Below are positions 4,318-10,169 of a stretch of DNA of 33,204 nt, one piece after another (within the stretch, counting starts at the first letter, position 1; each line of letters starts with the position of its first letter). This DNA is from Thermoproteota archaeon (GTDB taxonomy: Archaea; Thermoproteota; Thermoprotei_A; Sulfolobales; Ignicoccaceae): NCBI GenBank assembly GCA_013154085.1, contig JAADDE010000017.1, forward strand, positions 1 to 33,204, read 5' to 3'. The position numbers and the translations under genes are program-made. The notes under the pieces were generated by a model. It saw only the letters and a program-made list of their open reading frames with translations. It had not been told where the DNA came from and searched no databases.

Positions 4318-4506
4318 TTGGCGAAGAAGAAGGGAAGGAAGAGGAGGAAGGGCCAAAGCGGCTTGGTGACGGCCATAGGGCTGGTGAGGTTCTACGAAGA
4401 GGTCGACGAGAAGATAAAGGTGCCCCCAGAAGCGGTCATCGCCGCCGCTCTCGGCATCTCGCTGTTCGCAGCTATACTGGACTACATGCTGAAGTTCGCC
4501 CGATGA
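4318..4506 (+). CDS. secG: preprotein translocase subunit Sec61beta (SecG)
   Basis: 62 aa, the smallest subunit of the archaeal SecYEbeta translocon in the cytoplasmic membrane. The N-terminus is cytosolic and basic (MAKKKGRKRRKGQSGLVTAIGLVRFYEEVDEKIKV shortened: Lys/Arg-rich residues 3-12). It is followed by the family signature GLVRFYEE and a single C-terminal membrane helix (VIAAALGISLFAAIL). The start is TTG at 4318-4320. The TGA stop at 4504-4506 lies inside the C box of a candidate C/D sRNA. Length and layout match crenarchaeal Sec61beta closely. Confidence 0.9.
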   Translation: MAKKKGRKRRKGQSGLVTAIGLVRFYEEVDEKIKVPPEAVIAAALGISLFAAILDYMLKFAR

Positions 4507-4559
4507 GGTCCACGCCCTTCTCCGACCCGGTGAGGACTCTTCCTCCCGCAGCCGAGGGT
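4498..4559 (+). ncRNA. candidate C/D box sRNA with G-C type kink-turn (TGAGG/CCGA)
   Basis: The parts appear in C/D order. C box ATGAGGT is at 4503-4509, a 12-nt guide at 4510-4521, D' box CCGA at 4522-4525, a 4-nt spacer, C' box GTGAGGA at 4530-4536, a 15-nt guide at 4537-4551 and D box CCGA at 4552-4555. A terminal stem of CCC (4499-4501) with GGG (4556-4558) plus a G-U pair sits where a kink-turn external stem should be. Canonical boxes are RUGAUGA and CUGA. Here the fifth and sixth C-box bases (GG) pair with the first two D-box bases (CC), replacing the U-U pair, and this holds at both ends of the molecule. The stop codon of Sec61beta is part of the C box. No expression evidence; targets unassigned. 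Confidence 0.5.
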
Positions 4560-4623: not shown

Positions 4624-5325
4624 TTGCTCCGCGTCTACGTCGACGAGCGCGAGAAGAGGAGCGGCGTCCCAGAAATCTTGGTGAAGAAATATGGGATGGT
4701 CGTAACGTACAAGCCGCTACCGGTGGCCGACTATGTAGTATCTGAAAGGGTAGCCGTGGAGAGGAAGAGCGTAAGCGACTTGCTGAAGAGCCTTACCGAC
4801 GGAAGGCTCTTCAATCAAGCGAAGCGTCTAAAGGAAGCCTACCAGAAGCCCTTCATAATAGTGGAGGGAAGGTGGGACGGCGTAAGCAGGGCGGAGAGGG
4901 CTTCCAAGGCAGTGTCCTCAGCGCTGGCGTCGCTGGTCTACGATTTCGGCATAGGCGTAATCTACACCCTCACGAAAGAGGACACCGCAAGGGTGATAAG
5001 ATTCTTGGCGGAGAGGGAGCAAGGGGAGCGGAGGAGCAGGGTGCCGGTTAAGGCTATGGGGAAGCCTCCCATAGGCGATATCAAGCAGTGGCAGCTCTTC
5101 TTGGTCCAGTGCTTGCCGGGCGTGGGCCCGAAGCTGGCCGAGAGGCTGTTGGAAAGGTTCGGCAGCGTGAGGGCCGTGTTCAACGCGTCCGTCGCCGAGC
5201 TCAGCAAGGTTGACGGGCTCGGGCTGGGGAGGGCCCAGGAAATAGTGAAGATCTTGATGGCCCCGTGGAAGCCGGGCAAGAAGGGTGGGGGCTTAGACAA
5301 GTTCGTCGACAAGAAGGGGGGATGA
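4624..5325 (+). CDS. xpf: XPF/ERCC4-family structure-specific endonuclease (short crenarchaeal form)
   Basis: Nuclease that cuts 3'-flap and branched DNA during repair, usually with PCNA. The 233-aa product has the ERCC4 nuclease domain (about 1-135) with active-site residues D36 (VADY, where most members have GDY) and E46-R47-K48...D52 of the VERKSVSDL motif. A linker leads to a tandem helix-hairpin-helix domain (LPGVGPKLAERLLERFG, then VDGLGLGRAQEIVKIL). It lacks the helicase domain of euryarchaeal Hef, as expected for Crenarchaeota. The tail GGGLDKFVDKK may be a degenerate PCNA-interacting motif. The start is TTG at 4624, giving LRVYVDERE. Its TGA stop lies inside the C box of the second candidate sRNA. 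Confidence 0.92.
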   Translation: MLRVYVDEREKRSGVPEILVKKYGMVVTYKPLPVADYVVSERVAVERKSVSDLLKSLTDGRLFNQAKRLKEAYQKPFIIVEGRWDGVSRAERASKAVSSALASLVYDFGIGVIYTLTKEDTARVIRFLAEREQGERRSRVPVKAMGKPPIGDIKQWQLFLVQCLPGVGPKLAERLLERFGSVRAVFNASVAELSKVDGLGLGRAQEIVKILMAPWKPGKKGGGLDKFVDKKGG

Positions 5326-5379
5326 GCTGGAACCTCCGGCAGCGACTGCGGTGAGCGGCTCTGCCAGCCGCGACCCTTT
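5315..5379 (+). ncRNA. candidate C/D box sRNA with G-C type kink-turn (TGAGC/GCGA), guide complementary to a tRNA D-arm
   Basis: C box ATGAGCT is at 5322-5328, a 13-nt guide at 5329-5341, D' box GCGA at 5342-5345, a 5-nt spacer, C' box GTGAGCG at 5351-5357, a 12-nt guide at 5358-5369 and D box GCGA at 5370-5373. A 6-bp terminal stem joins 5315-5320 (AGGGGG) with 5374-5379 (CCCTTT, including two G-U pairs), offset exactly as a kink-turn with a 3-nt bulge requires. C-box bases 5-6 (GC) are complementary to D-box bases 1-2 (GC) in both box pairs. The second guide is complementary to GGCTGGCAGAGC, a consensus tRNA D-arm; the nucleotide opposite the fifth guide base from the D box would be G18. 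The C box contains the xpf stop codon. Confidence 0.6.
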
Positions 5380-9144: not shown

Positions 9145-9167
9145 GCCCTCGGCGAAGAGCGACGTCC

Positions 9168-10169
9168 TCACCCTTCGGACCCGGATTCTGTCCTCACCGG
9201 ACTCCTCAAGGCCTCCACTATCCTCCTGCTGAGCCTGCCAAAAATCTTGTTCACCAGCGTTTCGTACGAAACCGCTGAGGGGAGTATCGCTCCAGCCGCG
9301 CCGGGATGGCCTCCGCCCCGGCCTCCCAAGTCCCTTGCCAGCTCCGACAAGAACTCGGAAAGGCTTATGCCCAGCTTTAAGAGCCTTGGGGAGGCTCTAG
9401 CGTAGACCCGTAGCTCTCCTTCCCTCCTGCTGACGACGAACGCCGCGTCGAGGCCCACGCACTGGACGAGGGCCCTCATTACGGCCCCTTCGTTGCTACC
9501 TATTTCGGTTATGCCTATTATATAGTCTTTCACCTTGCGGTGTACCAGCCTTTCGCAAGCCTTCACCTTGGCAACTCTTATACTCAAGTCCTCTTCCTCC
9601 TTTTCCGAGAGGAAGGAAATTGCCTTAGATAGCTTTGAGAAGCGCGTCAGATACTCCAGTGCTGTGAACGTCTGGGGGCGCGAGAGCCTCAGACCTTTGC
9701 TGTCCACGTATATGCCGACCATGAGCGCCTCGGCCAGCGCCTCGCTCAGCTCGAGGTTCCAGTCCCTCGCCAAGAGGGCCACTATCTCCGAGGTGGAGCT
9801 TGCCGAGGGATCTACTATACACTCGTCCAGGTCGCCCTCGGAGTGGTGGTCGACCCGGCAGTACTCGCGGAGGCTCACTCCCGGGAGCTGTGAGGAGGAG
9901 GCGGTGTCCACCACAACAGCGAAGTCCTCGCTGACGGGGCCGGGGGAGAACTCCAGGCCGAGCGCCCGCGCGAGTCTCTTTCCCGACGAGGAGAGTCCTC
10001 CGGGGGCGTACGGCTTGGCCCCCAGGCTCGCGAACAGCGCCGCTGAGGCCACCGCGTCCGGATCGGCGTGTCTATGGACCAGTACTGCCACCTTCTCCTT
10101 CTTCAGCCGCTCCCTCAGCTCCCTCCCCTTTTCCAGCAATTCTCCTCTCAAGCTCCTGCAGTCCCGCAT
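9168..10169 (-). CDS. DHH/DHHA1 family phosphoesterase (RecJ/NrnA-like)
   Basis: 333 aa. The DHH domain has LVHRHADPDA (motif I), VVVDTASS (motif II) and the name-giving VDHHSEGD (motif III). The DHHA1 substrate-binding domain ends with GGRGGGHPGAAGA. Members hydrolyse phosphodiester bonds of oligonucleotides, nucleotides or ssDNA ends; specificity cannot be read here. The start is ATG 10167-10169, which overlaps the DUF3194 gene by 98 bp. A TTG 9-10 codons in, or GTG just before the motif, are alternatives; the helix preceding motif I is usual in the family, favouring an upstream start. Third gene of pfdB-DUF3194-DHH, an order I recall as common in Crenarchaeota. Confidence 0.9.
   Translation of the reverse strand: MRDCRSLRGELLEKGRELRERLKKEKVAVLVHRHADPDAVASAALFASLGAKPYAPGGLSSSGKRLARALGLEFSPGPVSEDFAVVVDTASSSQLPGVSLREYCRVDHHSEGDLDECIVDPSASSTSEIVALLARDWNLELSEALAEALMVGIYVDSKGLRLSRPQTFTALEYLTRFSKLSKAISFLSEKEEEDLSIRVAKVKACERLVHRKVKDYIIGITEIGSNEGAVMRALVQCVGLDAAFVVSRREGELRVYARASPRLLKLGISLSEFLSELARDLGGRGGGHPGAAGAILPSAVSYETLVNKIFGRLSRRIVEALRSPVRTESGSEG

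Follow-up and report, generated by a model that had tools for sequence, protein, structure and literature searches.

Positions 5315-5379 of the window (the whole 33,204-nucleotide stretch of DNA analysed here) very likely encode, on the plus strand, a guide sRNA of the box C/D type for 2'-O-methylation, in which the U·U pair of the k-turn is replaced by a Watson-Crick pair. To judge from its guides, this sRNA very probably steers the methylating enzyme to tRNAs. At the level of genome sequence, the covarying replacement of U·U is genus-wide, running through the Ignicoccus sRNA complement; we infer that the source genome itself belongs to an Ignicoccus species, a sibling of Ignicoccus hospitalis.

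Architecture and conservation of the sRNA at 5315-5379

The element is built from four boxes, TGAGC/GCGA/TGAGC/GCGA, which an earlier note on this DNA had placed here and which are indeed found at 5323, 5342, 5352 and 5370. Box C, (A)TGAGC, occupies 5322-5327 (TGAGC at 5323-5327, preceded by A5322) and is followed by the 14-nt D' guide TGGAACCTCCGGCA (5328-5341), box D' GCGA (5342-5345), box C' TGAGC (5352-5356), the 13-nt D guide GGCTCTGCCAGCC (5357-5369) and box D GCGA (5370-5373), all on the plus strand, with D' pairing with C' and D with C. The note had the layout right, but its spacings of 13, 5 and 12 nt, which put one base more into the boxes, become 14, 6 and 13 nt when the C boxes are counted as 5 nt. 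Its 6-bp terminal stem (AGGGGG/CCCTTT) is likewise in register, with a 5' arm at 5315-5320 and a 3' arm at 5374-5379 read directly from the sequence, except that two of the six pairs are G·U and four are Watson-Crick. The gene is delimited by its box geometry, the terminal stem and an I. hospitalis ortholog, its mature ends being approximate; at about 65 nt with the stem, it lies within the 50-70 nt of archaeal box C/D sRNAs.

Numbering the k-turn as G1b A2b x3b x4b against y4n y3n G2n A1n, both motifs read G·A, A·G, then G-C at 3b:3n and C-G at 4b:4n. All four boxes carry the TGA...GA letters with cognate pairing, a feature controlled genome-wide below, and C/D and C'/D' can each fold into a k-turn/k-loop motif that contains tandem sheared G·A pairs. 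Each motif also has what defines a U4-type k-turn, namely tandem G·A pairs together with G-C or G·U at 3b:3n. The boxes TGAGC/GCGA depart from the consensus RUGAUGA/CUGA with its U·U, and because these consensus letters and the U·U are absent we file the sRNA as a variant rather than a standard member. An Rfam scan of the window returned only a tRNA and no guide RNA.

The C-box TGA (5323-5325) doubles as the stop codon of an ERCC4/XPF-family nuclease gene (4624-5325), and the primase large-subunit gene (priL) lies downstream of the sRNA. Overlap with gene ends is common among archaeal C/D sRNAs (PMC7994747). A related-locus search of genome contigs yielded distant nuclease relatives only. By DNA search, an ortholog was found in I. 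hospitalis at 74304-74372 (74309-74357 in the narrower delimitation), with 85% identity over the sRNA, identical boxes (TGAGC/GCGA in both motifs) and nearly identical guides; the terminal stem retains just its three inner G-C pairs, the far end not being conserved. In I. hospitalis the syntenic spot, downstream of the XPF gene, holds no sRNA. Rather, the sRNA sits just upstream of priL in both species, and its upstream neighbour in I. hospitalis is an unrelated gene. DNA matches to the sRNA also occur in two further genomes (G105:C139 and G106:C119).

Box searching placed two more such sRNAs in the window, each with TGAGG/CCGA twice. The sister sRNA at 4504-4555 (plus strand), whose C-box TGA falls where a small reading frame ends, has an I. 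hospitalis ortholog upstream of the XPF gene, in which the D box is CTGA and 3b:3n is G·U. The third sRNA (9149-9196, minus strand) has its ortholog at I. hospitalis 722266-722313, where the outer motif is the canonical TGATG/CTGA. The earlier note had rested its case largely on covariation between the sister sRNA and the one at 5315-5379. Between these two, 4b:4n does change from G-C to C-G, but 3b:3n is unchanged; covariation at 3b:3n comes to light only in a comparison that takes in the entire genome and I. hospitalis.

The variant box class across genomes

We scanned 1.18 Mb of the source genome (57 contigs, 82% complete) and 1.19 Mb of the single 1,297,538-bp contig of I. hospitalis. At sRNA spacings, the degenerate pattern RTGANN/NNGA gave 177 placements in the source genome, compared with 43-67 in simulated genomes, and the box combinations enriched among these placements were the complementary ones. 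We called an element cognate when, in both of its box pairs, 4b:4n was Watson-Crick and 3b:3n was Watson-Crick, U·U or G·U. Cognate four-box elements numbered 53 in the source genome against 1 in the reversed sequence, and 47 in I. hospitalis against 0. The genome-wide box search that the note had proposed as a check thus returns a large and specific class, and its claim that the variant boxes form a real class in this organism is borne out and extends to the genus.

Because the 53-element set was selected for pairing, two tests that were not carry more weight. When D boxes were permuted over all placements, outer Watson-Crick pairs averaged 22.8 (maximum 35) against 61 observed, and inner pairs averaged 19.0 (maximum 32) against 54 observed. 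A fixed-geometry TGAGS/SCGA pattern, blind to pairing, gave 38 matches in five Ignicoccus genomes, every one of them cognate (38/38, where chance predicts 25%), including 23 in which the two motifs of an element differ. In the source genome, elements with one box pair throughout use TGAGG/CCGA (n=13) or TGAGC/GCGA (n=1), mispaired boxes throughout (TGAGC/CCGA or TGAGG/GCGA) do not occur, and the exact canonical TGATG/CTGA four-box element is absent from the 1.18 Mb scanned. When each k-turn is scanned separately, elements with different box pairs in their two motifs are common. Among the 53 cognate elements, the outer k-turn has G-C at 3b:3n in 39 and G·U in 5, and at least three terminal pairs are found in 40.

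In the order at large, the canonical four-box element is the prevailing form: of 214 genomes, 153 carry it, with as many as 44 copies in one genome, whereas Ignicoccus genomes have 0-2 canonical and 2-16 variant elements each. Outside the genus, variants are sporadic among these 214 genomes; 26 of the 36 matches there are cognate, which indicates that the variant also exists at a low level in other families. A class-wide pattern search in 15 genomes beyond the order gave no match. Plausible pressures behind the shift in Ignicoccus are its high G+C content (58%) and growth near 90 degrees.

Orthologs reveal how the boxes change. We matched 52 placement pairs between the source genome and I. hospitalis by guide sequence. 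At 3b:3n, paired double changes convert one Watson-Crick pair into another in 6 cases and exchange a Watson-Crick pair with U·U in 7, and many further changes pass through G·U, whereas 4b:4n hardly varies within a family. Between orthologs that share their guides, U·U, G-C, A-U and C-G are all exchanged at 3b:3n. The sRNA at C6:3210, for instance, has U-A in its inner motif where its I. hospitalis ortholog has A-U.

Probable tRNA targets, proposed mechanism and alternative readings

Both guides of the sRNA at 5315-5379 are of the expected 10-14 nt, lie beside D or D', and are complementary to tRNA with the fifth base paired. The D' guide forms 11 Watson-Crick bp with tRNA-Asn(GUU), with G49 at the fifth base. 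The D guide forms 11 Watson-Crick bp with tRNA-Thr(UGU), and 11 bp including one G·U with tRNA-Asn; in both tRNAs the fifth base falls on G18. The earlier note had predicted a D-arm target read at G18 by the fifth-nucleotide rule, and a tRNA with a fitting D-arm exists in the genome, but the match was overstated by one base: the 12-mer GGCTGGCAGAGC is absent from every tRNA of the source assembly, its sole match being the guide itself, and what tRNA-Thr(UGU) contains is the 11-mer GCTGGCAGAGC, which tRNA-Asn matches with one G·U pair. In both guides, the first base beside the D or D' box is mismatched to these tRNAs. When guides were shuffled, at least 11 bp with any tRNA was reached by 0.3% (D') and 0.6% (D), and the product of these two fractions puts the joint chance of both guides matching tRNAs at about 2 in 100,000. 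The I. hospitalis guides retain the matches (10-11 bp); the D' duplex has one G·U, so that the guide change there preserves pairing. A second sRNA in the source genome (C26:1688-1737, plus strand) has a D' guide that pairs 10 bp with tRNA-Thr(GGU), also at G18. The reading in the note is supported, though it lacked the D' target at tRNA-Asn G49, the orthologs and the genus-wide extent.

ARAGORN calls the intron-containing D-guide target tRNA (source genome C30:35745-35843; I. hospitalis 389316-389420) Ser(UGA). The unspliced gene and the Thr-like body contradict this call, and the body together with the unspliced anticodon arm indicates Thr(UGU).

Guide function can also be assessed for the class as a whole. 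As targets we used the tRNAs of both species and the I. hospitalis 16S and 23S rRNAs, rRNA genes being absent from the source assembly, and counted a guide as matching when it formed an unbroken run of 11 or more Watson-Crick pairs that took in the fifth base. Such matches were made by 26 of 106 guides in the source genome (1 in the antisense, 0 in the reversed and 0-2 in the shuffled controls) and by 23 of 94 in I. hospitalis (1, 1 and 0-2, respectively).

Several other readings of the locus have to be weighed against these data. Chance resemblance in or beside coding sequence might be suspected, since the 5' end of the element overlaps the nuclease reading frame and the C-box TGA is its stop codon; yet no more than roughly one such element per genome arises by chance, and the I. 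hospitalis ortholog keeps boxes and guides beside an unrelated upstream gene, making coincidence exceedingly improbable. Slightly less remote, but still very doubtful, is a cis-acting role, in which a pair of L7Ae-binding k-turns in the priL leader or at the end of the nuclease mRNA would regulate that gene. The position of priL directly downstream in both species would suit such a role, as would the known regulation by L7Ae through leader k-turns (PMC5539422, PMC6298567). However, a leader k-turn needs neither two full box pairs nor two conserved 13-14 nt guides that match tRNAs in fifth-base register, and overlap with a gene end is normal for an archaeal C/D sRNA (PMC7994747).

More serious, though in our judgement unlikely, is the possibility that the sRNA is real but works on other targets, as an orphan guide or as a tRNA-folding chaperone without methylation. 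The guide matches, at 11 bp, fall short of full length, and most tRNA-directed sRNAs of Pyrobaculum combine one targeting with one orphan guide (Lui et al. as cited in PMC7994747). Against this stand the low joint chance of two tRNA matches, their persistence in I. hospitalis, including the guide change kept as G·U, and the second sRNA directed at the same G18 in tRNA-Thr(GGU). A methylation guide for tRNAs is accordingly the reading we prefer.

How would such a guide work without its U·U pairs? L7Ae, Nop5 and fibrillarin are all encoded in the genus. Altered specificity of L7Ae is disfavoured as an explanation, as the protein is of the ordinary archaeal type, with a usual-looking NExxK region and VPSK loop; no protein change would thus be needed. 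The k-turn of the U4 snRNA 5' stem-loop, which has a strong preference for G-C or G·U at 3b:3n, is bound by the 15.5K/L7Ae family, and k-turns with a Watson-Crick 3b:3n pair are not folded by metal ions alone (PMC4382518). Since folding by ions alone is barred, and since U4 is folded by an L7Ae-family protein, the variant should still be a protein-dependent k-turn. The simplest account would be a standard C/D RNP on U4-like k-turns. L7Ae would bind both motifs and fold them on binding, as with U4-type k-turns, and Nop5 and fibrillarin would then assemble. The D guide would direct 2'-O-methylation of G18 in tRNA-Thr(UGU) and probably tRNA-Asn, and the D' guide would direct methylation of G49 in tRNA-Asn. 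Overlapping the 3' end of the nuclease gene in the source species, the sRNA is probably released from, or processed alongside, the nuclease mRNA.

With regard to expression of the class, an I. hospitalis RNA-seq study reports 128 C/D sRNAs, with GA/AG k-turn motifs sought by hand (PMC4644070). One of these, sR21, is described there with a D' guide to 16S A535 (E. coli numbering) and a D guide near G515 that is compromised by three G·U pairs. This description fits the I. hospitalis locus 151590-151642, with boxes TGAGG/CCGA and TGAAC/GTGA. Thus, sR21 is very probably a variant-box member, which provides indirect evidence that variant-box elements are expressed.

Two sRNAs in tandem, about 5 nt apart, are conserved in both species (source genome C11:26154-26256; I. 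hospitalis 823961-824062), an arrangement that suggests dicistronic processing. Two tandem sRNA-like elements (C15:33074-33181) lie just upstream of tRNA-Leu(CAG) at 33224, and two sRNAs on opposite strands (C16:28541-28645) stand tail to tail, 6 bp apart. A variant sRNA adjoins the L7Ae gene on the opposite strand (C3:34245-34696), and in I. hospitalis, too, there is one close to L7Ae (202302-202348).

Comparison with known systems

Guide sRNAs of this kind are known; the box variant is new. The sRNA at 5315-5379 resembles archaeal box C/D sRNAs in its four boxes, two 12-14 nt guides, short D'-C' spacer and terminal stem, and also in fifth-base rRNA/tRNA targets and the presence of L7Ae, Nop5 and fibrillarin in the genome. 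Archaeal C/D k-turns are described as strongly U:U at 3b:3n and G:C at 4b:4n (PMC5689011), whereas those of Ignicoccus are mostly G-C, but also A-U, C-G and G·U, at 3b:3n, and may be C-G at 4b:4n. The 128 sRNAs from I. hospitalis represent the same genus, and the available text gives a canonical consensus and does not remark on U·U replacement or covariation (PMC4644070). In the open-access article texts searched, we found no account of a genus in which covarying Watson-Crick pairs have replaced U·U throughout.

U·U counts as a hallmark of C/D k-turns, yet most Ignicoccus guides lack it while keeping cognate pairing and targets. The genus is thus a natural mutational experiment on what the L7Ae/Nop5/fibrillarin machine needs, and its orthologs, in which U·U and Watson-Crick pairs give way to each other by compensatory change, put k-turn rules from in vitro work to a direct test. 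There is a practical consequence as well: SnoReport 2.0 demands at least one uridine at the U·U position (PMC7994747), and in genomes of this sort dozens of guides may escape annotation pipelines. Taken to its full extent, the proposal is that Ignicoccus has converted its whole guide k-turn code from U·U to a freely covarying Watson-Crick 3b:3n pair, convergently with U4 snRNA, that a functional C/D methylation RNP can do without U·U, and that the sRNA at 5315-5379 methylates two sites in tRNA-Asn (G18 and G49); we consider this combined proposal evenly poised between right and wrong.

Among known guides, one from S. acidocaldarius directs methylation of U34 and G18 in tRNA-Gln(UUG) (PMC7668247). 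It is similar to our sRNA in acting at tRNA position 18 and at two sites in one tRNA, and differs in the tRNA and in the second site. The box structure itself resembles the U4 k-turn, which shares the G-C type at 3b:3n with the Ignicoccus motifs. UGAGG/CCGA is the human U4 sequence. Unlike the Ignicoccus sRNA, U4 is a eukaryotic spliceosomal RNA that has a single such k-turn and does not act as a guide; we take the resemblance to be convergent and make no claim of homology to U4.
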